A DNA stretch of 33,188 nucleotides, taken from Fibrobacter sp. (GTDB lineage: Bacteria; Fibrobacterota; Fibrobacteria; Fibrobacterales; Fibrobacteraceae). The stretch spans positions 1 through 33,188 of the forward strand of contig JAFVTX010000012.1 of NCBI GenBank assembly GCA_017503015.1, read 5' to 3'. Positions within the stretch are counted from its first letter, which is position 1, and each line of letters opens with the position of its first letter. Made by a program: the position numbers and the translations under genes. Shown one piece after another: positions 1 to 19,832 of this stretch. The notes under the pieces are model-generated. The model was not told where the DNA came from. It made no database searches and worked only from the letters and a program-made list of their open reading frames with translations.

Positions 1-186
1 AAGTATTCTTAAACTGGGTACAAAAAACTAAGCCCCATATTAAAAGTGAAACGGGACTGCTACTTTTTGTTCCCACTATCAAATTGACAGTTTATTTAAG
101 AATACCTTGCCGCATATTTATTAACTCCTTGTATAATACTAAATCTAATTATATTCCTTAGATTAGGCAAGTCTTTTTCTGTAAAT
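1..186. other. Left-edge non-coding stretch with inverted repeat
   Basis: No coding region is supported here. The sequence is AT-rich. A 10-bp motif TATTCTTAAA near position 4 recurs inverted as TTTAAGAATA at about 95-104, so the first ~105 bases could fold or could be ends of a small element. Bases about 160-190 read on the minus strand directly after the transposase stop codon as TTTACAGAAAAAGACTTGCC, which resembles the kind of terminal inverted repeat found just after IS256-family transposase genes; this is an inference because the partner end is not present. Confidence 0.35.
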
Positions 187-495
187 TCATGCACAAAAAG
201 CAGATTTTTCCATTTCCTTCTCGGTTAAGTAAGCTTTTTCTTCCATCCATTCCTCGTGTTGTTCCATCAGTAGCGAGCCGATGAGCCTCTCGCACGATTC
301 TGGATTCGGGAAGACGCCTACGACTTTTGTCCTCTTCTTGATTTCCTTGTTCAGGCGTTCTACGCAGTTCGACGTCCTGATTCTTCGCCACCATCCCTCG
401 TTGAAGTCGAAGTAGGTCATGGATTCCTCCGCGTTGCTTTCCAGCCAATCCGCGAAGGACTGGTGCTTCTTGGTCTCGGACCAGTATTGCACAGC
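160..495 (-). mobile_element. Truncated IS256-family insertion sequence (3' end only)
   Basis: The reading frame between about 495 and 187 encodes only the C-terminal third of an IS256-family transposase, with the conserved RxRTSNxxERLNKEIKxRT segment and the following VGVFPN motif. The 5' part of the transposase and the other inverted repeat are missing; their place is taken by the TPR coding sequence. The right boundary (about 495) is placed where TPR similarity ends and is approximate. The left boundary is placed at an IR-like sequence after the stop codon and is inferred. Confidence 0.6.
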
Positions 496-1116
496 ACCGC
501 GTAGCGCCATGCCATAATAGGGGTTCAAGTTTTCGGGGTCGATGGAGAGCGACTTCTCGAAAAGCTCCTTTCCCTTCGCGTACTTGCCCTGCTTGCAGTA
601 GATGCCGCCCAGGTTGTTCAGCGCGAGCGCGTTGTCCGGGTGGTATTGCAAAATCTTGCTGAAATATCCGTCCGCAGCCTCGGTGTTTCCCTTGGCGCTC
701 AATATGTTGCCCATCAGGAGCAAAGCCCACAAATTCTTGTCGTCAAGCAGCAGCGCGTCAAGACAGCTGTCTTGCGCCTTTTCCAGGTCGCCGCCTTCCA
801 TCGTCACCTGCGCGAGCAGACGGTGGTATTCGCTGTTGTATGGCCAGAGTCCGATGGCCTCGCGAAGCGCGAACCTTGCGCTGTTGAACTTGTGAGCGTT
901 TGAATGTTCCACCGCCTTGTCGAACTGCTTCTGCGCCTTTTGCGCCTTGCGTTCGTCGATGGAAACCTTTATTTCATGGTCTGAAATGCGTTCAAGCTGG
1001 GGACGGCAGGAATCCTCGGCTTTGAAGAAGCCGAGGATGGAGTACTCCATCGCGTCCAGCGAATCCGCCTTGAAGGGCGGCTGGTGCATGTCGAAGATTC
1101 GTTCGAAATTCTGCAT
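187..1116 (-). CDS. TPR protein fused in frame to the C-terminus of an IS256-family transposase
   Basis: Start chosen at the ATG at 1114-1116, preceded by AGAGAG; an in-frame upstream extension to 1242 is less likely. The 309-residue product has two unlike parts. Residues ~60-203 form tetratricopeptide helices (motifs such as LWALLLMGNILSAKGNTEAA and ALALNNLGGIYCKQGKY). From about residue 208 to the end the protein matches the C-terminus of IS256/Mutator transposases: RRIRTSNCVERLNKEIKKRT, then VVGVFPNPESCERLIG and MEQHEEW. The transposase N-terminus and most of its catalytic core are absent. The simplest reading is that a truncated IS copy lies against a TPR gene and supplies its new 3' end. 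The TPR part may still bind a protein partner; the transposase part cannot be active alone. Codons run open through the junction, so the chimera may be expressed. Confidence 0.7.
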   Translation of the reverse strand: MQNFERIFDMHQPPFKADSLDAMEYSILGFFKAEDSCRPQLERISDHEIKVSIDERKAQKAQKQFDKAVEHSNAHKFNSARFALREAIGLWPYNSEYHRLLAQVTMEGGDLEKAQDSCLDALLLDDKNLWALLLMGNILSAKGNTEAADGYFSKILQYHPDNALALNNLGGIYCKQGKYAKGKELFEKSLSIDPENLNPYYGMALRGAVQYWSETKKHQSFADWLESNAEESMTYFDFNEGWWRRIRTSNCVERLNKEIKKRTKVVGVFPNPESCERLIGSLLMEQHEEWMEEKAYLTEKEMEKSAFCA

Positions 1117-1679
1117 CTGTTCTCTCTTTTCGCCGTAAAAGATACAAAAATGGAGGCGCCTCACTTGACAGCTTCTGCAATTCGCAAGCAATCGCAGCCG
1201 TTCCCGCCGTTTCGCTTTTGTTCGCTGTGCAAAACGCTGCAAGCGTTCCGCAGCATTAAGCCGCTAAACTGTCCGCCAAAGGCGCCAAATGGGCGTACGC
1301 GAAGCTGCACGCCTGCGGGGGGGGGGGGGCTAAAGTTGCGAAATTTCACTTTTTTCAAAAGTGTCACGAATTGACAGAATAAATTTTTATTTTTTCCGCT
1401 GCTCAAGTCGGGACGGAAAAAATCCCCTTCGATATCTATATCGCCCTCAAGCTCATTTTCTTTTTTTCGTCGCGCAGTCGCGTGAGTTGAGTATGAGGTT
1501 TTTATATATCAATATCTCCACAATAACGGAGTGAGTCCTACTCATACTCCTACTGTTGATTATTCTCCTATTACTACTACTGATATAATAGGCTTGCAAG
1601 TTTTTGTCGCGACTTGAACCCGTTTGTTATGCCTGGGTTCAAGCGTTTGCAAATCGTTGCGACTTGCAAAAGTTCCCAC
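1117..1679. other. Spacer of ~560 bp without a convincing gene
   Basis: Only short shadow reading frames occur here and none has recognisable similarity. Visible structure: a run of 13 G at 1317-1329; an AT-rich patch at 1375-1400; a string of CTACT/TACTAC-like triplets at 1538-1582; and an inverted repeat CTTGAACCC (1613-1621) / GGGTTCAAG (1635-1643) with a 13-nt loop. The left boundary of the integrative element probably falls in this spacer, but no direct repeat matching the tRNA-like right end was found. Confidence 0.5.
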
Positions 1680-1701
1680 AAAAAAAGGCCCGAACAGGGC
1701 C
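1680..1701 (-). terminator. Rho-independent terminator of the XRE repressor gene
   Basis: On the minus strand GGCCC-TGTTC-GGGCC is followed by seven T. It lies about 40 bases beyond the stop codon of the leftward repressor gene and so ends its transcript. Confidence 0.75.
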
Positions 1702-1741
1702 AAAGGACTGCTTATGCCTAAGCTAAAGGAACACGGGGAAA

Positions 1742-2065
1742 TTACCCTTGTTGGTCTTCAGAACTTTCATCTTTTAGACGCAGACTGCGAAGCCCGTTGC
1801 GTACGATTAGAGCGCATTCCTCGGGAGTCAGCACAACCTCGCCCCGAAACTCCGCAGCGTGACGAGTCTTTATCGCCTCCCAAAGTTCAGGAGTGAAAAG
1901 CTCGTCGATTCCCATGCCGATTTCCAGTAGCTTCTGGCAAATGTCGTAGCTGGGAGTCGCCTTGCCTTTCTTCCAAGCGGTGACGCTTGAGGCGTTGAGT
2001 CCCAGTTCGTCGGCCAGGGTGCTGGCCGTCTTGTTTGTTCTGTCAAGGTATTTTTCAACGTTCAT
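1742..2065 (-). CDS. XRE/Cro-CI-type HTH transcriptional regulator
   Basis: The 107-residue product has an N-terminal helix-turn-helix of the XRE type, roughly residues 8-55: ASTLADELGLNASSVTAWKK followed by GKATPSYDICQKLLEIG. The remainder (residues 60-107) is a short charged tail with no recognised domain. The family binds operators as a dimer and typically keeps a temperate element silent. It is transcribed away from the rightward early operon across a 90-bp AT-rich control region that holds two TATTCAAT half-sites in opposite orientation, which are plausible operators. It is followed by its own terminator. The role as element repressor is inferred from position and fold; no cleavage or peptidase domain is present, so induction would not be by CI-type self-cleavage. 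Confidence 0.8.
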   Translation of the reverse strand: MNVEKYLDRTNKTASTLADELGLNASSVTAWKKGKATPSYDICQKLLEIGMGIDELFTPELWEAIKTRHAAEFRGEVVLTPEECALIVRNGLRSLRLKDESSEDQQG

Positions 2066-2158
2066 GCCATAAATTTAATCAAAAATTGCACAGTATTCAA
2101 TAATTTTTAAAAAATTTTTAAAAAATCCCTTGATTTTTTGCTTAGAATTGAATAGATT
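2066..2158. promoter_or_regulatory. Divergent control region with paired half-sites and phased A-tracts
   Basis: This AT-rich gap separates the leftward repressor from the rightward early genes. TATTCAAT at 2094-2101 recurs inverted as ATTGAATA at 2147-2154; the two sites are 53 bp apart, close to five helical turns. Between them the 11-bp unit TTTTTAAAAAA is repeated exactly twice (2104-2114 and 2115-2125), giving phased A-tracts expected to bend DNA. The arrangement suggests a repressor-controlled divergent promoter; binding by the XRE protein is an inference. Confidence 0.5.
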
Positions 2159-2188
2159 TTGAATGTAAGGCAAAAGAAATTGAAAAGT

Positions 2189-2371
2189 ATGCAAAAGAAA
2201 ATAAACGGTACGCAAAAAATTTGGCAGGTCGGCATAACGGCACGGGCGAAGCAGGCCCTGGAGCAGCTGGCCAGCGAGAACAAGCGAAAGGGTTTCCCGG
2301 CGAGCCAGGGACTCATTGCCTCAACCTTGATACTTAGGGCTTTTGAACATGGCGAATCCATATTGGGCTAA
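2189..2371 (+). CDS. Small DNA-binding-like protein, first gene of the early operon
   Basis: The 60-residue product starts at the ATG at 2189; a TTG at 2159 in the same frame would add ten residues. The central segment QVGITARAKQALEQLASENK, followed by a stretch that includes SQGLIASTLILRAF, has the layout of a short beta strand and two helices seen in ribbon-helix-helix proteins, but no diagnostic motif fixes this. It overlaps the next gene by 23 bp, suggesting translational coupling. Function is not known; a role in regulating or organising the early operon is possible. Confidence 0.5.
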   Translation: MQKKINGTQKIWQVGITARAKQALEQLASENKRKGFPASQGLIASTLILRAFEHGESILG

Positions 2372-2819
2372 GGTTTCGTTCAGTGACTTTATCAAGCACT
2401 TCCGAAAAATGACGGATGAACAGATTATCGCCGACGTGAGGGATTCGATGGATGCACTTGAGGATGTTGACGGGACTGGCGACAGTTTCGGGGCGTTCAT
2501 GGTGAAATGTTCCAGCGAGAGAATCCAGCAGCGCAGCGAGGTCAACAGGGCGAACGCCCTGGCTGGACACGAAAAACACGGACATGAGATTAGGAAAGTA
2601 CAGCCGCCGCGATTGCCGACGACCGAGGAACTTTACGACTTCTGCGCGGAAAAGCACCTCGACGACGCGCTGGGACGCGAATGGCTGGAGATTACGCTTT
2701 CCAGGGGAGGGAAAACCCGTGAGGGCATGACGATTATGAACTGGAAAGGGGCAGTCACGAACTACGTGGCGGCAAGGCTAAAAAACCTGTCGAAGGGACA
2801 ACAAATGAACAACTACTAA
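2349..2819 (+). CDS. Phage-type replication-like protein
   Basis: The 156-residue product begins at the ATG at 2349; a TTG two codons upstream is an alternative. Residues ~90-150 contain LPTTEELYDFCAEKHLDD, an aromatic WLEITL segment and MTIMNWKGAVTNYVAARL. This pattern (a short PTxxEV-like helix, then a glycine-rich turn, then NWKxAVxNW-like end) is common at the C-terminus of phage replication-initiator or DnaD-like proteins. The N-terminal half (FSDFIKHFRKMTDEQIIADV) is not recognised and is short for a full initiator. It lies immediately before the Bet/RecT gene, fitting a DNA-replication module. The assignment is moderate to weak. Confidence 0.55.
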   Translation: MANPYWAKVSFSDFIKHFRKMTDEQIIADVRDSMDALEDVDGTGDSFGAFMVKCSSERIQQRSEVNRANALAGHEKHGHEIRKVQPPRLPTTEELYDFCAEKHLDDALGREWLEITLSRGGKTREGMTIMNWKGAVTNYVAARLKNLSKGQQMNNY

Positions 2820-2840
2820 CAATAAAGGGAAACCAAAACC

Positions 2841-3692
2841 ATGATGAACACATTAGCTACACAATCCAATCCGCAGCAGGTCAACGACGCCCTGCTGCTT
2901 GACTACCTCACCGCGACGACGCCGGGTCTCAACGACCACCAGGTCAAGCAGTTCCTCGCGGTTTCCATGGCGTTCGGGCTGAACCCGTGGAAGAAAGAAG
3001 TTTATGCCGTCACGTACAACAATCGCGACGGCGGAAAGACGATGAGCATCGTCACGGGGTACGAAGTGTACCTCAAGCGTGCCGAGATGAACCCCAACTA
3101 CGACGGCTACGAGACCGAATGGCGCGGCGAGTTCGTCAGGGGCAAGTCCACCAAGAGTGGCAAGAACGGCAACTACAGCGTGGATGCACTGGTTCCCAAG
3201 GACGGGGACGTGAGCTGCATCTGCCGCGTTTTCCGCAAGGACAGGAAGGTTCCCGTAAAGTGCGAGGTATTTTTCAGCGAGTACGACCAGGGCAATTCCA
3301 TGTGGCAAAGCAAGCCCAGGGTCATGCTTGAGAAGGTCGCGATTGCGCGTGCGTTCCGCCTCGCTTTCCCCGTGGAGTTCGGCGGGATGCCCTATGAGAG
3401 CGCGGAGCTTTCGCCGGAACAGGGACTCGACCCCGAAAAGGAAATCAAGATTGAGGAAGCGGTGGAAAGGGCGGAAGCCCCGAAGCCGGAACAGCAGCCG
3501 CAGGAACATACGGGCGACCGCAAGGCGAAATTCATCGAGGTGTGCAACAAGATGATTCCCGCCGCGATTAAGGACACGCTCAAGGCGTACAACTGTCGCA
3601 GCCTGGAAGAACTGGGCCTTGACCAGATTGACGGATTCTACCGCGAGGCGAAGCGCGTGGAAGCCGGAATGATGCAGGAGGTGGAGTTCTAA
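2841..3692 (+). CDS. bet: Phage recombination protein Bet/RecT (single-strand annealase)
   Basis: The 283-residue product belongs to the Bet/RecT single-strand annealing family. Family hallmarks are visible: QVKQFLAVSMAFGLNPWKKE with following VYAVTY, then SIVTGYEVYLKRAEMNP, the KVPVKCEVFFSEYDQ segment, and KPRVMLEKVAIARAFRLAFP leading to GGMPY. The core spans residues ~30-185; residues 190-235 are a Glu/Pro-rich linker and 235-283 a variable helical tail. The protein anneals complementary DNA during recombination and replication of the element. A ribosome site AAAGGGA precedes the start. The usual partner exonuclease (lambda Exo, RecE or YqaJ type) is not adjacent. The gene overlaps the next by TAATG, so the pair is probably coupled. 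Confidence 0.92.
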   Translation: MMNTLATQSNPQQVNDALLLDYLTATTPGLNDHQVKQFLAVSMAFGLNPWKKEVYAVTYNNRDGGKTMSIVTGYEVYLKRAEMNPNYDGYETEWRGEFVRGKSTKSGKNGNYSVDALVPKDGDVSCICRVFRKDRKVPVKCEVFFSEYDQGNSMWQSKPRVMLEKVAIARAFRLAFPVEFGGMPYESAELSPEQGLDPEKEIKIEEAVERAEAPKPEQQPQEHTGDRKAKFIEVCNKMIPAAIKDTLKAYNCRSLEELGLDQIDGFYREAKRVEAGMMQEVEF

Positions 3693-4687
3693 TGGAGGCG
3701 ACGATGGAAACCGAAGAAGTGATGGAAGAAAAGAACCCCAATGCGCTCGTCCTTATCGACGAGGGAAAACAGTTCGCGGTCAAGACGGACTGCATGGACC
3801 CGGAGGCGCTTTTCCTGGACAAGAAGAACTTTGTCCCGATGCTCAACCAAGTCAAGAAGATTGCGCGTGGGCTGATTGCCGATGTTCACACCGAGGAAGG
3901 GTTCAAGGCCCGCAAGGCGATGAACGCCAAGCTCGCGAAGCTCAAGACCGCCATCGAGGACAGGGGCGCACAGGTCGCCAAGGAACTCAAGGCGAAGCCC
4001 AAGCGCGTCGATGAAACGCGGCGGCTTGTGAAGGAAACGCTCGAAATGCTCCAGAAGGAGGTCATGGCGCCCATCAGGGAAATCGAGGCGAGACAGCAGG
4101 AAATCGTGGAGATTTCCAACATTCCCGCGACGGCCATCGGCTGCAATTCCGAAGGGTGCAGGCAGGTGCTTGAAGCCATCGAAGCACATGTTCACGACGC
4201 CAAGTACTGGGACGAAAGCTACCAGGAAGCGATGGACGCCATCAACGACGCGAGGCGCCAGGTCAACGGCATCCTCGCCAGCGCGGAGAAGCAGGAGGCG
4301 GAGAAAGCTGAACTGGAACGCTTGAGGGCGAGTCAGGCGGACTTTGAAAAGGCGGCGCGTGAAAAGGCGGAAGCCGAGAAACGCGAAACGGAAGAAAAAC
4401 TGCGCAAGGCGCAAGAAGAAGCAGAAACGGCAAAACGCGAGGCGGAAGCGGCCAAGCGCGAAGCTGCGGAAGCACAGAAATTGACCAATGTCGATTTCGG
4501 GGAGGCTGATGCCAAGGCGACACGCGAGGCGATGCTTTTCCCGGACGACGAACGCCAATACCGACGCATGGCGAATCGGGAAGCACTCGAAGACCTGATG
4601 AACTACGGACTTGACGAAGCCGCCGCGAAGCAGCTCGTTACGGACATAGTGCACGGGAAAGTGCGCCATGTGCGGTTTGTTTACTAA
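3692..4687 (+). CDS. DUF1351-like phage coiled-coil protein
   Basis: The 331-residue product is strongly charged. Residues ~40-130 (LNQVKKIARGLIADVHTEEG, then a KARKAMNAKLAKLKTAIEDR segment and IREIEARQQE) resemble DUF1351-type proteins that accompany RecT genes in phages. Residues ~190-270 form a long Ala/Glu/Lys/Arg coiled coil. The C-terminus (EALEDLMNYGLDEAAAKQLV) is helical. The start at 3692 overlaps the bet stop codon; a second ATG at 3704 has a GGAGG five bases before it and may be the true start. The role is unknown; the neighbourhood suggests it aids annealase-driven replication or recombination. Confidence 0.7.
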   Translation: MEATMETEEVMEEKNPNALVLIDEGKQFAVKTDCMDPEALFLDKKNFVPMLNQVKKIARGLIADVHTEEGFKARKAMNAKLAKLKTAIEDRGAQVAKELKAKPKRVDETRRLVKETLEMLQKEVMAPIREIEARQQEIVEISNIPATAIGCNSEGCRQVLEAIEAHVHDAKYWDESYQEAMDAINDARRQVNGILASAEKQEAEKAELERLRASQADFEKAAREKAEAEKRETEEKLRKAQEEAETAKREAEAAKREAAEAQKLTNVDFGEADAKATREAMLFPDDERQYRRMANREALEDLMNYGLDEAAAKQLVTDIVHGKVRHVRFVY

Positions 4688-4810
4688 GAAAACTCGCAGC
4701 TTTTTCTAACCCAAGCTGCGGCGCTGCTGGTGCGCGAATCGCCAGCGTTCTTTCTTTGACTAAAAACAGTTAAGAAAATCAACAACCAATAACCATAAAG
4801 GAAAAAACAA
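4688..4810. other. Intergenic hairpin between coiled-coil and 88-aa genes
   Basis: A perfect 8-bp inverted repeat CGCAGCTT (4695-4702) / AAGCTGCG (4713-4720) lies just after the stop codon, followed by a weaker GCTGG/CCAGC pair and a T-rich stretch. This may attenuate or end the early transcript. A ribosome site AAAGGAAAAAACAA leads into the next gene. Confidence 0.4.
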
Positions 4811-5077
4811 ATGACATACGAAGCAAGAGGAAGGTTCGAGGAAACCTTCGCAAATGTACCGGGCGTAACCGTTTCGGAACTCAAGATTACCTGCGACGAC
4901 CATGCACACGTTCTTCGCTGGATGGCAGCTGTCGTAAAGGAATGTACGGGCGTCGCACTTGAGGAACGGATAAAGTTCAGCGTCTATGAAAAGATTGACG
5001 ACGAACGCGTGAACTCGAAGGAGTATTTCGTTTACGAGGGAGGCGAGAACGTCTCCTGGAACAAGGTGAAGATTTAG
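4811..5077 (+). CDS. Unrecognised 88-residue protein of the element
   Basis: The gene has a good ribosome-binding site (AAAGGA) and base composition like its neighbours. The product is acidic, with alternating hydrophobic residues suggestive of an alpha/beta fold (VTVSELKITCDDHAHVLRWM, then RIKFSVYEKI). No family was recognised. Position in the rightward operon suggests an accessory early function. Confidence 0.6.
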   Translation: MTYEARGRFEETFANVPGVTVSELKITCDDHAHVLRWMAAVVKECTGVALEERIKFSVYEKIDDERVNSKEYFVYEGGENVSWNKVKI

Positions 5078-5125
5078 CCGACCGCTGCATGGTGCAGGCG
5101 GTGGCCTAGATGGATTGAATCGAAG

Positions 5126-5443
5126 ATGGACAGACTTGAAAAGGAACTTGAACAGATAATCGTGATGGAAGATGCAGGGCTTAGCCTACGCTCGCTCTGT
5201 CGCATTTATAAGGAAACCGTGCTGGACGACGAGTCCATGAAGGACATTCCGCTTGAGGCGAAGCAGTTCGCCGTTGCGGAGAGCCTTACCAAAGGCTACT
5301 GCGGGATAGCACGGAAGTTCGGGTTTAATGATGAAAGGTTCATGTCTGGACTCATGTCAAACTTTATGCTGCCACTTGTGGCCGCGCTGCATTATATCGT
5401 CACCAGGAATGGTGAAAGGAGTACCGATGAAGATAATCGCTGA
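5126..5443 (+). CDS. Unrecognised 105-residue helical protein
   Basis: The product starts MDRLEKELEQIIVMEDAG and is predicted to be mostly helical from its residue pattern; the segment SLRSLCRIYKETVL could be helix-turn-helix-like but this is not secure. No clear ribosome site precedes the ATG. The 48-bp gap upstream contains an imperfect hairpin (CCGC TGCA...TGCA GGCGG). The 3' end overlaps the next gene by 17 bp, which supports it being a real gene translated with its neighbour. Confidence 0.5.
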   Translation: MDRLEKELEQIIVMEDAGLSLRSLCRIYKETVLDDESMKDIPLEAKQFAVAESLTKGYCGIARKFGFNDERFMSGLMSNFMLPLVAALHYIVTRNGERSTDEDNR

Positions 5444-5693
5444 TGAAGAATTTCTCGACCGTACCGAGGCTGGGAATTTTATCGGGATGGCGACATCCAC
5501 TTTCGACAAGCTGTTGGCAAAAAGCCGTCACGGCAAGTTGGTCTATCCGCTGGAAGTTTACCAGCCGGGCGGACGCGGTACTCCGATGTGGTTCAGCAAA
5601 TCCAGGTTGAAGGAATGGCTCAACAATGTCATTTCCAGCGGCGGCATCGCCGTGTGTGCGAGAAAGACGCACTTCACGATGGACGAATTTTAG
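5427..5693 (+). CDS. Excisionase-like HTH DNA-binding protein
   Basis: The start at 5427 is chosen for its AAAGGAG ribosome site; longer upstream readings in this frame lack one. The 88-residue product has the layout of AlpA/excisionase-type winged helix proteins: FLDRTEAGNFIGMATSTFDK (recognition helix region, residues ~8-28), then a basic loop and FSKSRLKEWLNNV as the closing helix. Such proteins direct excision by a tyrosine integrase or activate its gene. The presence of an integrase in the same element fits. The C-terminal 20 residues are not conserved in that family. Confidence 0.65.
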   Translation: MKIIADEEFLDRTEAGNFIGMATSTFDKLLAKSRHGKLVYPLEVYQPGGRGTPMWFSKSRLKEWLNNVISSGGIAVCARKTHFTMDEF

Positions 5694-5758
5694 GAAGATA
5701 CCTCCTTGACGCACGAAGGCCCTGGCTTATGCCGGGGCCTTTTCTATTTTTGTTTCAA

Positions 5759-6247
5759 ATGGAGAATGAAGCAATGGCTCAAAAGTTAAAAACAGTTCAA
5801 AAAGCATGGATTGAACATATTAAGGCAGGGAATCGGATAAAAGAACTGATTAAGGGAACGTCAAATATAATGGGCGATTACTCTGAGTTTCTTATAAGCA
5901 AACTGTATAAAGCGGAAAAAATGCCCAATTCGAATAAAAGTTTTGATTTGAAATGTGAAGATGGAACTCGGATTCAAGTGAAATCGAGACAAGTTTCTTC
6001 CGGGAAAACAGATAAATCGTTGAATATTTTTCGCTCTTGGGATTTTGATTTGCTTGTTGTTGTGTTGTTTTGGAATGATGGTTCGTTATATAAAGTTATT
6101 GAGATGAAAGCTGACGATGCAAAAGTTTTTAGAACGCCTAATAAACATCAAAATGGATTTATAATTCATACTTCAAAAGATTTTCTTGAATGTAGCGAGG
6201 CAAATGACAGAACCGCTGATATGAAAAAAATGATTGACGAAGAATAA
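5759..6247 (+). CDS. PD-(D/E)XK-like nuclease-fold protein (DUF6998-like)
   Basis: Two starts fit: ATG at 5759, or ATG at 5774, which has GGAG nine bases upstream. The product has the order of motifs expected for a restriction-endonuclease fold: GDYSEFLISKLY (acidic residue in a helix), then SFDLKCEDG (Asp), then RIQVKSR (QxK), then FDLLVVVLF strand. DUF6998-type proteins show the same order. Residue roles are inferred from the pattern only. The gene is clearly more AT-rich than the flanking element genes and sits with the next gene between the early operon and the integrase, where phage and satellite elements often carry cargo. It may be a defence or DNA-processing nuclease. It is not a recognised partner exonuclease of Bet. 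Confidence 0.65.
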   Translation: MENEAMAQKLKTVQKAWIEHIKAGNRIKELIKGTSNIMGDYSEFLISKLYKAEKMPNSNKSFDLKCEDGTRIQVKSRQVSSGKTDKSLNIFRSWDFDLLVVVLFWNDGSLYKVIEMKADDAKVFRTPNKHQNGFIIHTSKDFLECSEANDRTADMKKMIDEE

Positions 6248-6259
6248 TTATTTGTAATT

Positions 6260-6601
6260 ATGGTCGAGATTGAACATGCATTGAGGAACTACCTTGTGAA
6301 CCCAAATGACTTGGATTTGGGCTTCGCGATGGCTGCTTTGGCTCGAAAGACAAAAGCGCATTATCGCGAACTGGGAGGCAACCTAAAGAAGGAAGCGGTC
6401 ACGCTCGGCAAGACTTTCGCGATTGATTTGAAAATCGGTAAATGGCCCGATGTTCTTGACGGAAGGTTTGAAAACAACTTTAAAACAAAAACCGTTTCCT
6501 TCTTGAAGAAGATAAACGGTGATGTGCATAAGGCTGCGGAACTAATGCTCAAGCAGTGCCTTAAAACAGTTGAAAAGAATGCTGGTTTGAAAAAGCCTTA
6601 G
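6260..6601 (+). CDS. Unrecognised 113-residue cargo protein
   Basis: The gene starts 12 bp after the nuclease-like gene, so the two are probably cotranscribed. The product is basic and helical (FAMAALARKTKAHYRELGGN, DVHKAAELMLKQCLKTVEKN), with no transmembrane segment and no recognised motif. Its 3' end overlaps the convergent membrane-protein gene by four bases. A joint function with the nuclease-like protein is inferred from spacing only. Confidence 0.55.
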   Translation: MVEIEHALRNYLVNPNDLDLGFAMAALARKTKAHYRELGGNLKKEAVTLGKTFAIDLKIGKWPDVLDGRFENNFKTKTVSFLKKINGDVHKAAELMLKQCLKTVEKNAGLKKP

Positions 6602-6798
6602 AGGCGACTAAACAGGAAAAATACCAGTCCCCATGCGGCAATGACAGCAGCGCCGCCAACAACAATTAGAGACCCAAGAATGAGGCAGAAGGAACGGAAC
6701 GTTTCGGGCTTCGATTTATGTTCTTGAAGCGGCACGAATAGCATTTCGTAAAGGCCGAGAATAAAGTTTTTCCATGCGTCGATAGTCTCTTTAATCAT
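6598..6798 (-). CDS. Small single-span membrane protein
   Basis: The 66-residue product has a hydrophobic segment at residues ~38-63 (FCLILGSLIVVGGAAVIAAW and following FFLF) after an amphipathic N-terminal part. No ribosome site is obvious. It lies downstream of the integrase terminator on the same strand. It is too short for a confident holin call and has no lysis partner. It could be a small envelope protein of the element or an unused frame. Confidence 0.45.
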   Translation of the reverse strand: MIKETIDAWKNFILGLYEMLFVPLQEHKSKPETFRSFCLILGSLIVVGGAAVIAAWGLVFFLFSRL

Positions 6799-6810
6799 GT
6801 TTCAATAATA

Positions 6811-6861
6811 ACAAAAAGAAAACCCGGAATAGATTTCATTGATGATAAAATCTACTCCGGG
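6811..6861 (-). terminator. Rho-independent terminator of the integrase gene
   Basis: The minus strand holds CCCGGAGTAGATTT pairing with AAATCTATTCCGGG (one mismatch) and then TTTTCTTTTTG. It begins 15 bases beyond the integrase stop codon. Confidence 0.8.
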
Positions 6862-6875
6862 CAGATTGGAGGAAA

Positions 6876-7907
6876 TTATTTCTTATTGAGAGCCTTTTCC
6901 AGGTCGTCTTGCAGCAAGTGACTGTAGGTGTCCAAGGTCTGACGCACATCTTCATGACGCATCAACTGCTGAACGATTTTCGGGCCAACGCCGGAACGGA
7001 TAAGGTTGGAGGCGAAAGAGTGTCTCCACTTGTGGTTCGTCGCGTCGTCGCTCTTATATCCCGCTGCTTCCACTGCAATTCGCAGCGTTTCGTTGCACCT
7101 GTCCGCATGGTCGAAACGAGCTGTCGCGAACATGCCATCTTTCAGCTTGCCGTAGCGCTTGATTTCCGCCTTGAGGCGGTCGCTAATCGGAAGGAACGCC
7201 TCCTTGTCGCCCTTGCCGACGACGCGCATCTTTCCGTCCTCCTGGATGCATGACGGTCCAAATCGGCAAGCCTCCGCATGACGCAGGCCAGCGAAGGCCA
7301 TGACTGACCAGAACAGTCTAAATTCCGGGTCGGGCGCGTTGTCGAGAATCCTTTCAATCTGTTCGGGAGTCCAGAACGCCTTGGCGCGTTTCGGAACCTT
7401 GGGGAACGCCACGTCGCGGAACGGGTTGTAGTCGCCCAGGTCGTAAATCTTAGCCGCCCACTGGCAGAACTGGCTTGTGCAGCGAACCATTTCGTGCTGG
7501 GACTTGGGAGCGTACCTTTCGGACAGCCACACCGCCCAGTTCGTCGCCTGCTCCGCGTCGAAGCGCATGAGCGTCTTGATGCCGTTTGCGTCAAGCCATT
7601 CCCTGAATGTCTTGAGTCGGTACTTGTAAGCGAGGTGGGTCTTGGAGTCGTCGCCCTTGGACGCCGCGACGGAATCCAGGAACTTCGGGAGCGCCTCGTC
7701 GAAGCCCCTGTCCTTCGGCATGAGCTTGCGGCGGATTTCCTCGGGCATGAACCTGGCCGCGTTCATCATGTTCAGCCATTCCTGTGCGTCGCTCTTGCGC
7801 TTGGTTTTAAGACTGATGTAGGAGAACTCGCCATCCTCCGCGATTCTCCCGTACCATGTAAGGTTGCCGCGGTACTTGTACCGCTGCGATATGCTGTAGC
7901 TTTTCAT
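6876..7907 (-). CDS. int: Tyrosine recombinase (phage/ICE-type integrase)
   Basis: The 343-residue product has the full tyrosine recombinase catalytic set: Arg209 (FAGLRHAEA), Lys235 (GKGDKEAFLPI), His292 and Arg295 (HKWRHSFAS), His318 (MRHEDVRQTL) and nucleophile Tyr328 (DTYSHLL). The N-terminal ~60 residues are a small arm-binding-like domain (TWYGRIAEDGEFSYISLKTK), followed by a core-binding SAM-like domain at ~68-165. It catalyses integration and excision of the element. It is transcribed leftward from next to the attachment-site region; three 11-bp-phased repeats just upstream are candidate arm sites. It has its own terminator. Confidence 0.93.
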   Translation of the reverse strand: MKSYSISQRYKYRGNLTWYGRIAEDGEFSYISLKTKRKSDAQEWLNMMNAARFMPEEIRRKLMPKDRGFDEALPKFLDSVAASKGDDSKTHLAYKYRLKTFREWLDANGIKTLMRFDAEQATNWAVWLSERYAPKSQHEMVRCTSQFCQWAAKIYDLGDYNPFRDVAFPKVPKRAKAFWTPEQIERILDNAPDPEFRLFWSVMAFAGLRHAEACRFGPSCIQEDGKMRVVGKGDKEAFLPISDRLKAEIKRYGKLKDGMFATARFDHADRCNETLRIAVEAAGYKSDDATNHKWRHSFASNLIRSGVGPKIVQQLMRHEDVRQTLDTYSHLLQDDLEKALNKK

Positions 7908-7942
7908 ACAAACAAATCTACTAAAATTTGCCTAAAAGTCGG

Positions 7943-7971
7943 CTCACAAAAAGCTCACAAATGTCTCACAT
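7943..7971. repeat. Three 11-bp-phased direct repeats upstream of int
   Basis: CTCACAAA occurs at 7943-7950 and 7954-7961 and as CTCACAT at 7965-7971, exactly 11 bp apart, 36-64 bp before the integrase start codon. Short phased direct repeats beside an integrase gene are typical of integrase arm-type sites; an operator for int is the alternative. Confidence 0.55.
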
Positions 7972-8081
7972 CATACCCGATTTTTGGCGGTTTCTCCCGT
8001 CTTTCGGGAAAAACCATTACAAGCGACGGAGAACCGCGACAGACAGTCCAAATCGCGCCGGAAGCCTTGATTTTACTGATG

Positions 8082-8111
8082 AAAAAGGCCCGGAGGCTTT
8101 TGCCTTCGGGC
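8082..8111 (-). terminator. Rho-independent terminator downstream of the tRNA-like fragment
   Basis: On the minus strand GCCCGAAGGC-AAAA-GCCTCCGGGC is followed by CTTTTTC. It would end a transcript coming from glgA or from the tRNA-like sequence at 8151-8189 and lies 175 bp upstream of int. Confidence 0.75.
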
Positions 8112-8150
8112 TTCCAATGGAGTACTTTCTGAAAATTTTTCGGGGCTGGG

Positions 8151-8189
8151 TTGATAGTCCGACGCTCTAACCAATTGAGCTAAAGTCCC
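8151..8189 (-). tRNA. 5'-half tRNA sequence at probable element attachment junction (partial)
   Basis: The minus strand reads as a tRNA 5' half: acceptor strand GGGACTT, TA, D-arm GCTC-AATTGGTTA-GAGC, G26, anticodon-stem TCGGA and loop CTATCAA. After the loop the pairing strand should be TCCGA but the sequence is CCCAG, and no T-arm or acceptor 3' strand follows within 70 bases before the terminator. It is therefore a fragment, not a working tRNA gene, and its identity cannot be set. Its position beside an integrase suggests an att junction. It overlaps the last codons and stop of glgA. Confidence 0.5.
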
Positions 8190-9604
8190 AGTTCGCCCAA
8201 AATTAGTAAATATTTTCCGATAGTCCGGTCCCACTCGTAGTGGAACCCGCTGTAGGCGTTTATCACCGCCTTGTCCCAGTCGGCACTTTCTTCGTAATAA
8301 ACGTGCAGGGCATCTTTCAGCCTGCGCAACATCTGGTGGGGAGCGTTGGCGTCATCCACCAAGAAGGCGTTGGCGCATCCCGAAGTTTCCGGGGCGTAGT
8401 CGTCCAGCATGGTGGCCACCCCGACGTTACGTCCGGTCAGGGGAAGCGTTCCTGTGGCGAGGGCCTTCAAGATGATGGAGGTGGATGGCTCCTTCAGGTT
8501 TGCCGCGAACAAGATGTCGGAACCGGCCAGCACGTCGCGCAGGGCGCTGGCACTCTTGGTCTCGATGGGCCGAACCGCCATGATTCCCGGATACTGTTTG
8601 GAAACATCCTGGTAGTAGTTCCATTCTGGATCGTCTGGAGCGATGCCCACCACGATAAAGATGTCCTGCTTGGCAATATCCGAAAGGATAGTGGCCAGGG
8701 TTTCCGAAGTGTTGCCTGCTTCGGGATCCAGGTGGGCGTAGAGGATTGGTTTGTTCCCGACCTCGCACCCCAGTATTCCCTCCAGTTTGGCACGGGCTTT
8801 CTTCTTTGCCTGCTTGATGGGCAACTTGTCCTTGCTGTTGAAGTCCCAGACTTGGTAGCTGACACCGAACTGCACGCCAATCAGTTTGTCCTGGTTGTGA
8901 ATCAAGAATCCGCTGAGACCGCCGGGCAAGTTGGTGTTGATCATGGCGTCGCGATAGCCCGGAGAGGGGAATAGCACCTTGTGGGCATAGCAGATGCCGG
9001 CCTTCAAAAGGCTTACCTTACCCCAGAATTCGTAGCCGTCCATATTGAAATCTTGCCTGGGTAGCCCAATATTTTCGATTTCGCTAGAGGAAACGTGGAA
9101 GTCGTAGGTAATGTTGTGGACCGTAAAGAAGAAGGGAACCTGGCCAAAGGCTTCTTGGTAAACGGTATGGATAAGGGCTCCGGCCAGGGCACCGCCCCAT
9201 TCGTGGCCGAGAATCGCCTGGCACTTGAAACCAGTTTCCTGGGCGTAGTCCAGGGCGGCAGAAGCCAGGAAGGCGAACCGCAGGTGGTTGTCGCCGTAGG
9301 GAAGGTCGCCGGGAGGGCCGTAAATATCGGGCCTGCCGAAGTATTCTTCGTTGTAGATGTAGGTGTGGAAGGGGTCCCCCGGAGATTTCCAGATTTCGTA
9401 GGGCTTGCCGTGGAGCTTTTCAGTGCCGCTGAAAACGCAACTGTAACCTTCCAGATCCTGCAACAGGGGCTTGTAGAAAGGGGAGCAAGTCAGGGCGTTG
9501 GCTCCGGCCCTTGCAAAGGCGTAGGTCATCCGGTTTACAGCGGTGGCCAGGGGACTCAGCGTCCGCCAATTTCCGGCTTCTGGACTGACCACCAGGATTT
9601 CCAT
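8180..9604 (-). CDS. glgA: Glycogen/starch synthase-like GT5 glycosyltransferase, divergent active-site motifs
   Basis: The 474-residue product aligns along its length with GT5 glycogen synthases: DNHLRFAFLASAALDYA, ILGHEWGGALAGAL, FFFTVHNITYDF, the EFWGKVSLLKAGICYAHKVL segment, KLIGVQFGVSYQVW, and EPSTSIILKALATGTLPL near the C-terminus. Known members move glucose from ADP-glucose to a growing alpha-1,4-glucan. However, the N-terminal KxGGL nucleotide-sugar motif is replaced by SPEAGNWRTLSPLA, and the late TGGL motif by NVGVA. The enzyme may thus have altered donor use or lower activity; the gene symbol marks family, not proven function. The stop codon lies inside the tRNA-like fragment, so the last residues may have been changed by element insertion. 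Confidence 0.8.
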   Translation of the reverse strand: MEILVVSPEAGNWRTLSPLATAVNRMTYAFARAGANALTCSPFYKPLLQDLEGYSCVFSGTEKLHGKPYEIWKSPGDPFHTYIYNEEYFGRPDIYGPPGDLPYGDNHLRFAFLASAALDYAQETGFKCQAILGHEWGGALAGALIHTVYQEAFGQVPFFFTVHNITYDFHVSSSEIENIGLPRQDFNMDGYEFWGKVSLLKAGICYAHKVLFPSPGYRDAMINTNLPGGLSGFLIHNQDKLIGVQFGVSYQVWDFNSKDKLPIKQAKKKARAKLEGILGCEVGNKPILYAHLDPEAGNTSETLATILSDIAKQDIFIVVGIAPDDPEWNYYQDVSKQYPGIMAVRPIETKSASALRDVLAGSDILFAANLKEPSTSIILKALATGTLPLTGRNVGVATMLDDYAPETSGCANAFLVDDANAPHQMLRRLKDALHVYYEESADWDKAVINAYSGFHYEWDRTIGKYLLILGELGL

Positions 9605-9752
9605 TGATTTTGCCCCTTTTTTAATAAAATTTTACTATTTGTAATAGTAATAGGCCAAATTTATTTAATTAAATTATAATTTGAAAGTCCTAAATCCAAA
9701 TTTTTCGGATAAAAGGTTTCTTTTTGAACTTAATCTTCGAGGATTTAATAAA
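9605..9752. promoter_or_regulatory. Divergent promoter region with perfect palindrome
   Basis: The AT-rich gap between the leftward glycogen-synthase-like gene and the rightward lipoprotein gene contains a perfect inverted repeat TTACTATT-TGT-AATAGTAA at 9632-9650. Its size and symmetry fit a dimeric regulator site. A GAGGA ribosome site precedes the lipoprotein start. Confidence 0.4.
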
Positions 9753-10811
9753 ATGAAGAAATTGTTAATCGCTGCATTGGCTGCCTCCGTGGCATTTACC
9801 ATGGTTGGTTGCAAGGGCACCAACGAAAAGCGCGGTGACGAACACCTCAAGGAAGGCCGTTTCCGCAATGCCATCAACTCCTACCTGGAAGCCAAGAAAA
9901 AGGGCAGCATGTCCAGCGAGTTCTACGATAACTTCACCCTGGCCTTGGTCCGTGCTGCCGAAATCGAAGCCAAGAAGGACCTGAACAGCGACCTCATCAA
10001 CGGCTACTTCGAAAAGGCCTCCGTGAACATGCCCGAAGTCAAGGAAGACGTGGTGGTAGAAGAATATGTGACTACCCTCGCCAATGTGGGTAAGCAGCAG
10101 GCCGCTCAGGAAGGCGTGGATTACAATACCGTCATCAACGCTTTCGCCAAGATTGATACCGCCCTCGCTACCGCCAAGGCCCGTAACGTGGCCGAAGGTG
10201 CCGTGAAGGCTATCCGCACCGAAGCGGAAAACGCCTATGTGGCCAAGAACCTCCCCATGGCAAAGGATGAATCGGACCCGGTGGTTCGTGAATACCAGAT
10301 CATGAAGATTGCCGAAATGGCTCCCGAAAACTCCGAAGTGAAGGCCGTGCTGAACAAGAGCCGTATCGGCACCCGTGGTTACTTCCTCATCTTCGGTGAA
10401 CAGATCGGTGAACCGGTGAACCGCCGTATCGACAAGTGGGGCTATGTCATGGCGTTCCCCACCATCAAGATTGCTCCGGGTTCTCTCTCTGGCGAACTCC
10501 AGTTCTGGGCCTCTACCGGCAACAACACCGAACTTGACCCCTCCAAGATCAAGCTGGTCTCTACCGACGGCAAGGAAGTGATTGCCAAGGCTACCGGTGG
10601 CTGGTGCGAAGCCGAAGTCCTGGTTGGCAAGAAGGGTGACGAAAAGATTGAAAAGAAGCAGCAGAAGATCAAGGCTGGCGAAAAGGGCAAGCTCATGAAC
10701 GAGTTCCAGTGCTCCTTGAACGTGAGCTTCAGCTTCGGCAAGGACTTCGTGCCTGACTACGTGGAATACAAGGACGAATTCGGCATCGGCCGCAAGTTCC
10801 TCGGTCAGTAG
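9753..10811 (+). CDS. Lipoprotein with N-terminal TPR-like repeat, unknown function
   Basis: Start at 9753 gives a clear lipoprotein signal (MKKLLIAALAASVAFTMVGC with the Cys at residue 20) and follows a GAGGA site; an upstream extension to 9681 has no such logic. Residues ~27-50 (GDEHLKEGRFRNAINSYLEA) look like a TPR helix pair; the middle is helical; residues ~200-350 look like a beta-rich domain. The strong preference for a few codons (GAA, AAG, CTC, CGT/CGC) suggests high expression. It is followed by its own terminator. The role is unknown; export to the envelope is well supported. Confidence 0.75.
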   Translation: MKKLLIAALAASVAFTMVGCKGTNEKRGDEHLKEGRFRNAINSYLEAKKKGSMSSEFYDNFTLALVRAAEIEAKKDLNSDLINGYFEKASVNMPEVKEDVVVEEYVTTLANVGKQQAAQEGVDYNTVINAFAKIDTALATAKARNVAEGAVKAIRTEAENAYVAKNLPMAKDESDPVVREYQIMKIAEMAPENSEVKAVLNKSRIGTRGYFLIFGEQIGEPVNRRIDKWGYVMAFPTIKIAPGSLSGELQFWASTGNNTELDPSKIKLVSTDGKEVIAKATGGWCEAEVLVGKKGDEKIEKKQQKIKAGEKGKLMNEFQCSLNVSFSFGKDFVPDYVEYKDEFGIGRKFLGQ

Positions 10812-19073: not shown

Positions 19074-19832
19074 TTAGAAGTTGATGCCGAACTTGCCGGT
19101 GAGCCAAATGGGCATTTCTTCACCGTAGTAGTCGTCACCGATGCCGAACTTGGCGCTCAGGTCAACATAGAACATCGGGTTGATGGCGATGTTCACGCCA
19201 ACATACGGAGCGAGACCGAGGTCGCCGCTTTCGTCAGAACCCGGAATTTCGTCACCATCGTGGGTGTTTTCGCCGAGCTTCATGTCAATGTCGAGTCCGA
19301 CGTACGGAGTGAACATCTGGTTGATGGCGAAGTCGCCTTCAAGACCGATATGCAGGTTGTACGGAGGAGAAACTTCGTCGTCGCCTTCGGTACGGATGGC
19401 GAGGCCGGCTTCAGAACCGAAGTTCACCATACCGAAGTTCTGGGAGAACTGGACACCGAAGTAGAGGCCGAGACCGTCCGGGCTCACTTCTTCGTCACCG
19501 ACGGGCAGGTCCACGTCAACGAAGGCGTTCATGATGGGCATGAACTGGTAGCGAACCATCAGAGGAATGTTGTTCAGACCATCGGCCTTCGCATCTTCGC
19601 CATCCCAATGGGTGAAAACGGTGTAGGGGAGCTTGACACCCAGTTCCAAGTTCGGGATGACCGTGTAGCGGGCACCAACGAAGAGTCCGAGTGCGTTCCA
19701 CTTGTCCTGCATCCTGTCGGTGACGCCGACTTCAGCCTGGCCCTTGTGGTTTTCGAGTACCGGGAAGTAGTTCCAGGTAGCGAAGGAAGCTGTGGCCACC
19801 AAGGCGGTAGCGAGAGCGATTTTCTTGAACAT
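19074..19832 (-). CDS. Outer-membrane beta-barrel protein
   Basis: The 252-residue product has a signal peptide MFKKIALATALVATASFA and a mature part of alternating strands (NLELGVKLPYTVFTHW, LNNIPLMVRYQFMPIM, GLGLYFGVQFSQNFGM), ending KFGINF with terminal Phe. This is typical of small outer-membrane barrels in Fibrobacterota. The strand spacing suggests roughly 10-12 strands. A strong AAGGAG site precedes the ATG. Channel or structural role unknown. Confidence 0.75.
   Translation of the reverse strand: MFKKIALATALVATASFATWNYFPVLENHKGQAEVGVTDRMQDKWNALGLFVGARYTVIPNLELGVKLPYTVFTHWDGEDAKADGLNNIPLMVRYQFMPIMNAFVDVDLPVGDEEVSPDGLGLYFGVQFSQNFGMVNFGSEAGLAIRTEGDDEVSPPYNLHIGLEGDFAINQMFTPYVGLDIDMKLGENTHDGDEIPGSDESGDLGLAPYVGVNIAINPMFYVDLSAKFGIGDDYYGEEMPIWLTGKFGINF

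Follow-up and report, generated by a model that had tools for sequence, protein, structure and literature searches.

Between the early genes and the integrase of a prophage-type element in Fibrobacter sp. lie two adjacent small genes, which an earlier note took for an AT-rich cargo pair made up of a nuclease-fold protein and an unknown partner. The locus therefore raises two questions: what kind of nuclease is encoded, and whether the two genes belong together. The window, i.e., the whole stretch of DNA analyzed here, is 33,188 nucleotides long, and the features on which the argument depends are as follows.

1742 to 2065, reverse strand: helix-turn-helix repressor-like protein (PF01381, 1.5e-5)
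2841 to 3692, forward strand: RecT-type annealing protein, early genes (PF03837, 2.2e-29)
5715 to 5742, forward strand: terminator-like hairpin directly 5' of slot 1, also found in L001 and L042 to L046
5753 to 6259, no strand: cargo slot 1, delimited by blastn breakpoints and printed sequences
5759 to 6247, forward strand: predicted BisI-like modification-dependent restriction endonuclease (PADLOC mREase_II, PDB matches to NhoI and Eco15I, Foldseek)
6260 to 6601, forward strand: basic, all-helical protein of 113 residues (AlphaFold); fixed backbone gene (9/9 sister elements), not a partner of the nuclease
6582 to 6875, no strand: second variable slot, with a 66-residue hydrophobic open reading frame (ORF) here and other ORFs in sister elements
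6876 to 7907, reverse strand: integrase, tyrosine recombinase (PF00589, 4.1e-19; phrog_1, 7.6e-49)

The nuclease gene and its BisI-family relatives

Both ORFs were confirmed, and the first encodes 162 residues counted from the ATG at 5759. An alternative in-frame ATG at 5774, with a GGAG nine bases upstream of it, would give 157 residues; neither a Shine-Dalgarno sequence nor a promoter could be established for this gene, promoter-like sites showing no excess over shuffled sequences (3 versus 2.7). The E...D...QxK order reported before is present as E43 (GDYSEF), D63 (FDLKCEDG), and Q73 with K75 (RIQVKSR). With a G+C content of 33.3% (28.8% at third positions) against a window mean of 52.7% (standard deviation, 4.6; measured over 489-bp stretches), the nuclease gene is the most AT-rich part of the window: 8 of the 3270 stretches of that length are as AT-rich, and all eight start at 5741 to 5831, on the gene itself. 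The 113-residue gene is only mildly AT-rich (44.2% G+C), so the anomaly in composition, which the earlier note had correctly seen against the neighboring genes, belongs to the nuclease alone.

The PADLOC mREase_II profiles match the nuclease at 5.5e-20 and 1e-17, and a sequence search of the PDB returned NhoI (2.9e-15) and Eco15I (5.1e-9), with no other match below an E value of 0.1. Both are 5-methylcytosine (5mC)-dependent restriction enzymes of the BisI family (PMC11347163). An AlphaFold model was built from a four-row alignment and is of middling confidence (best pLDDT, 78.5; 62 to 67 for the other four models); in Foldseek it recovered the NhoI-DNA chains (E value of 1.0e-12), Eco15I (3.4e-9), DpnI (5.9e-5), and PvuII (4.9e-4). 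Pfam assigns the protein to DUF6998 at 27.8 bits, barely above the 27-bit cut-off, and phrog_24787 also matches; neither family has an assigned function. By profile, sequence, and predicted fold, the nuclease belongs with NhoI and Eco15I.

The catalytic residues point the same way. Eleven rows were aligned: the window protein, its counterparts in genomes G006 (93% identity) and G077 (40%), and eight plasmid proteins (25 to 38%). E43, D63, Q73, K75, and R77 are invariant in all 11, and R92 and H130 are kept in 10; the NhoI residues at the matching positions either take part in catalysis or form the lining of the methyl pockets (PMC11347163). A twelfth, distant homologue in G074 (24% identity), aligned later and left out of these counts, has a glutamate in place of Q73 and thus an ExK rather than a QxK motif. 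The fold match to NhoI together with the four retained catalytic residues supports the PD-(D/E)XK-type nuclease that the earlier note had proposed and for which it had suggested fold prediction and profile searches.

Recognition residues and predicted activity

In the alignment with NhoI, the counterparts of R77, R92, and H130 are Arg84, Arg101, and His139 (numbering of the NhoI paper), whereas two recognition positions are changed. NhoI Ser98, which contacts the guanine opposite the internal 5mC (PMC11347163), is N89 in the nuclease, and Val140 is Q131. Measured against the methyl-pocket motif given for the BisI family, (H/R)(V/I/T/M) (PMC11347163), H130 fits and Q131 falls outside, and the nuclease is classed as a variant. 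Asn and Gln co-occur in four of the 11 rows, namely, the window, L001 (G006), L055 (G077), and L065 (a Vibrio alginolyticus plasmid); six others have Ser or Gly plus Thr, and L072 has Ser plus Lys and lacks the histidine. In a 14-row tree, the four Asn/Gln proteins group together with a support of 94/95, just under the tool's star threshold, so that in the aligned sequences the two changes recur jointly in one small clade that spans Fibrobacterota and a Vibrio plasmid. With these two residues altered, precisely what the nuclease reads, in site or in modification, may differ from GCNGC with 5mC. A tentative extension, which we regard as possible rather than probable, is that the Asn/Gln clade constitutes a distinct subfamily that reads a cytosine modification or a site other than 5mC in GCNGC. 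If so, the joint shift of Gln for Val in the internal methyl pocket and of Asn for Ser would be expected from polar contacts in the pocket, for instance, with 5-hydroxymethylcytosine (5hmC) or a new base pair; how these substitutions would alter specificity is conjectural, and the two co-changed residues provide a small, testable hypothesis on how the reading of modifications shifts.

We consider it probable that the protein is a BisI-like restriction enzyme that depends on modification, acts alone, and is exchangeable cargo of a Fibrobacter prophage-type element, and that it destroys incoming DNA bearing 5mC or 5hmC. By homology, it would act as a homodimer through its PD-(D/E)XK core (E43, D63, Q73, and K75), detect modified cytosines within the DNA duplex without base flipping, and cut inside a short GC-rich site; a carrier cell would thereby destroy phage or plasmid DNA that enters with 5mC or 5hmC, and its own DNA would be spared. 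Restriction of incoming DNA with modified cytosine is the most likely activity, and an anti-phage role is probable. BisI homologues are often solo and located on mobile elements (PMC4926085).

Dependence on modification is likely, not certain, because cleavage of unmodified sites is known for Bce1273I and Bth171I, two BisI homologues from mobile elements (PMC4926085). Together with the replacement of Ser98 by Asn and of Val140 by Gln, these enzymes lend some weight to an alternative in which the specificity has drifted and an orphan nuclease cuts unmodified or otherwise modified DNA for the benefit of the element, by destroying competing DNA, instead of restricting 5mC-containing DNA. We regard this as unlikely: cutting of unmodified DNA would endanger the host, yet no protecting methyltransferase lies beside the gene in the window, and the methyl-pocket residues R77, R92, and H130 are retained. 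Still less probable is a decaying, inactive copy. Between the window and G006, the dN/dS ratio of the nuclease gene is 0.48 versus 0.05 for the 113-residue gene (Nei-Gojobori method), so constraint may have been lost, and of 34 BisI homologues that were expressed, 23 showed activity and the rest did not (PMC4926085); the ratio fits a fast-evolving defense gene or weak constraint alike, and against decay stand an intact frame in both copies, 93% protein identity, and preserved catalytic residues.

If the nuclease is indeed a modification-dependent restriction enzyme, it has to be compatible with its host, whose genome has three C5-methyltransferase genes; it must therefore not read, or must tolerate, their marks. 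BisI itself occurs alongside an active C5 methyltransferase whose specificity is different (PMC4926085). The host genes lie in two clusters (L053, 5681 to 12520; L054, 3001 to 12548), one with MzaB-, MzaC-, and MzaD-like neighbors and the other with two C5 methyltransferases and an McrB-like ATPase; the NCBIfam scores of the MZA-like and McrB-like neighbors are far under the cut-offs.

Among characterized enzymes, NhoI (PDB 8q5n and 8rpx) is the closest parallel, being similar in size, predicted fold, catalytic residues, and the equivalents of Arg84, Arg101, and His139; it differs at Ser98 and Val140, shares about 27% identity, and, unlike the nuclease, is not carried by a Fibrobacter prophage element. 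The N-terminal domain of Eco15I (PDB 8q5m and 8q5o), the part solved of a longer protein, shares the fold and the QxK active site but is the weaker sequence match, and its pocket is His-Val whereas that of the nuclease is His-Gln (PMC11347163). The Vibrio plasmid protein L065 (WP_158174302.1, annotated as hypothetical) is 38% identical and shares the Asn/Gln pair. Unlike the nuclease, it lies among hypothetical genes, including a DUF3265 protein gene that we take to be of the cassette type, and has no adjoining integrase or 113-residue gene.

An exchangeable nuclease beside a fixed gene

In blastn comparisons of window positions 1 to 10000 with sister loci, identity of 97 to 98% extends to 5751 to 5753, breaks, and resumes at 6260. 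The slot is readable in seven elements, in which it holds the nuclease (two; the window and G006), an 86-residue ORF (two; G037 and G031), or four bases (three; G107, G003, and G030); it is unseen in G022 and G111, where the contig ends within the 113-residue gene. The 86-residue ORF encodes an acidic protein unrelated to the nuclease, and its stop overlaps the start of the 113-residue gene. Different genes in one slot of near-identical elements are the mark of hotspot cargo, and the nuclease behaves as such exchangeable cargo beside the integrase, as the first reading had proposed. The late arrival suggested there gains support from the AT-rich composition and from presence and absence in this slot. 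Among the small cargo genes of the sister slots, no PADLOC family was matched below 0.01, and the only Pfam match above cut-off among sister-slot cargo ORFs was Fib_succ_major, in a 374-residue ORF of L046.

A whole integrase of 98 to 100% identity is present in 9 of 80 Fibrobacter genomes, that of the window included (G000, G006, G107, G111, G037, G003, G030, G031, and G022), and fragments occur in G043 and G034. The nuclease was found in 2 of 61 Fibrobacter genomes, with L001 and L052, the same 3069-base contig, counted once and a weak third match in G040 (27% identity, E value of 6.3e-4) dropped as short and missed by the PADLOC profile. A profile search placed nuclease-type proteins in 4 of 167 Fibrobacterota genomes. 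Homologues occur in 111 of 72,556 plasmid records, all below 60% identity, and in none of the phage or IMG/VR records searched.

The distribution of the neighboring gene is different. It is present in 9/9 integrase-carrying genomes (seven copies whole, two cut by contig ends), and more distant copies in six further genomes bring the total to 15 of 80. A cargo pair, as claimed before, is thus not borne out, and the counter-case that had been raised, fixation in every related element, applies to the 113-residue gene and fails for the nuclease (two of seven slots). The genes have also diverged unequally between the window and G006: dN and dS are 0.035 and 0.073 for the nuclease and 0.029 and 0.559 for the 113-residue gene, compared with 0.041 and 0.351 for the 66-residue gene and 0 and 0.109 for the integrase. 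The nuclease copies look younger than the adjoining ones, with the proviso that silent changes may be less readily tolerated in an AT-rich gene. Each gene is also found without the other: no 113-residue homologue is present in ten BisI-type loci (L055, L005, and L065 to L072), and no nuclease homologue in six loci with distant 113-residue copies (L056 to L060 and L085). A two-gene system, in which the nuclease would need the 113-residue protein as a sensor, immunity factor, or DNA-binding partner, is suggested by the adjacent, codirected arrangement of the genes, 12 bases apart, in both carriers, but it is highly improbable given their unequal distribution and synonymous divergence, their separation in these 16 loci, and the solved BisI-family enzymes that work without a partner (PMC11347163). 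The nuclease is therefore solo cargo and the 113-residue gene part of the backbone. A 20-residue match (E value of 0.007) in L044 falls outside the slot and was attributed to chance.

The 113-residue protein is basic (net charge of +8), as had been noted, and its AlphaFold model (mean pLDDT of 94.4) is entirely helical. It has no match among the 72,556 plasmid records and one relative in IMG/VR (L085). Pfam (above cut-off) and PHROGs (usual E values) gave no family for 11 aligned members, nor did NCBIfam and PADLOC for the window protein. A profile match to human S100-A9 (E value of 0.0016) was put down to chance, no member having matched any Pfam EF-hand family; fold searches gave a weak EF-hand kinase row (3v5p, E value of 6.0, Z of 3.2), Foldseek returned nothing at an E value of 0.001 or below in the PDB or BFVD, and VIA-align gave Z values of at most 4.0 among 215 chains. 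A toxin-antitoxin unit with the small upstream gene was rejected, since the upstream genes fall into three unrelated groups and three sister elements have none. In the distant elements, L056 and L057 have one kind, L058, L059, and L085 another, and L046 a third, with no BLASTP similarity below an E value of 1 between kinds. The apparent unknown partner is thereby removed from the candidate defense genes.

Two side observations concern this gene. In two other Fibrobacter genomes (L056, 6309 to 11497; L057, 3868 to 8204), its homologue follows a different small acidic ORF, which adjoins a 975-residue ORF that by eye resembles a Type I restriction subunit. Within elements otherwise 97 to 98% identical, the gene has dS values of 0.2 to 0.56 yet encodes a strongly conserved protein; the high dS is perhaps due to recombination around the slot.

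The sister prophages

G107 and G003 share a stretch of about 54 kb, from position 19,731 of G107:C1 to the right end of the element and minus the variable module and smaller gaps; this is the length of the shared stretch and not of the element, whose left boundary is undefined. Terminase and portal genes lie within it. In G030, the portal gene and a shortened copy of the terminase gene directly abut the right-hand part, the junction falling at window position 5638. The variable module precedes the repressor (L076, 4722 to 16575, in G107; L077, 8153 to 15566, in G003; L078, 2077 to 9438, in G031), and its counterpart in the genome of the window lies beyond the contig end. In G107 it comprises Ssp-like phosphorothioation genes (SspB, 1.7e-54; SspC, 8.9e-131; SspA or DndA, about 1e-36), in G003 a UvrD-like helicase with a methyltransferase, and in G031 Type I restriction genes (HsdR and HsdM checked). 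Given the terminase and portal genes, the variable module, and the two variable slots, the sister elements seem to form a prophage family in which three or more sites take up cargo, and their restriction modules (Ssp-like, Type I, and others) count in favor of a defensive role for the nuclease.

The element in the window may be reduced, or the assembly incomplete, because position 1 of the window is a contig end, beside a Mutator-type transposase fragment. Three queries against its own assembly (the portal, a DUF3383-like protein, and a 6.3-kb stretch of G003) gave no match, in a search that had no positive control. On the reverse strand at 187 to 1242, an ORF begins as a TPR protein and continues into the final part of a Mutator-family transposase (PF00872, 7.1e-23); in L078, an ORF that shares this start is 686 residues long. 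Sister homology stops at window positions 8183 to 8185 in L044 and L046, where neither a second copy of the element end nor a whole tRNA marks an attachment site. The integrase has no relatives in IMG/VR.

Prophage anti-phage hotspots likewise swap their cargo at one set position of otherwise near-identical phage elements; the Fibrobacter prophage is unrelated to them and has flanking genes of its own. Among the paper titles listed for Fibrobacter prophages or for BisI in prophages, none concerns this element, and the accessible portion of PMC8281217 makes no mention of Fibrobacter. According to the authors of the BisI-family structures, what the enzymes of this family guard against is unclear (PMC11347163); a set of near-identical prophage elements told apart by precisely the nuclease gene amounts to a natural experiment on that protective role. 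Fibrobacter carries 9.8 defense systems per genome, among the highest of rumen genera (PMC11834463). In the G107 sister prophage, L082 (4555 to 7444) encodes GTP cyclohydrolase I, a radical-SAM protein, QueC, and a 246-residue ORF without a Pfam match, a preQ0-type gene set that suggests 7-deazaguanine modification of the phage DNA.
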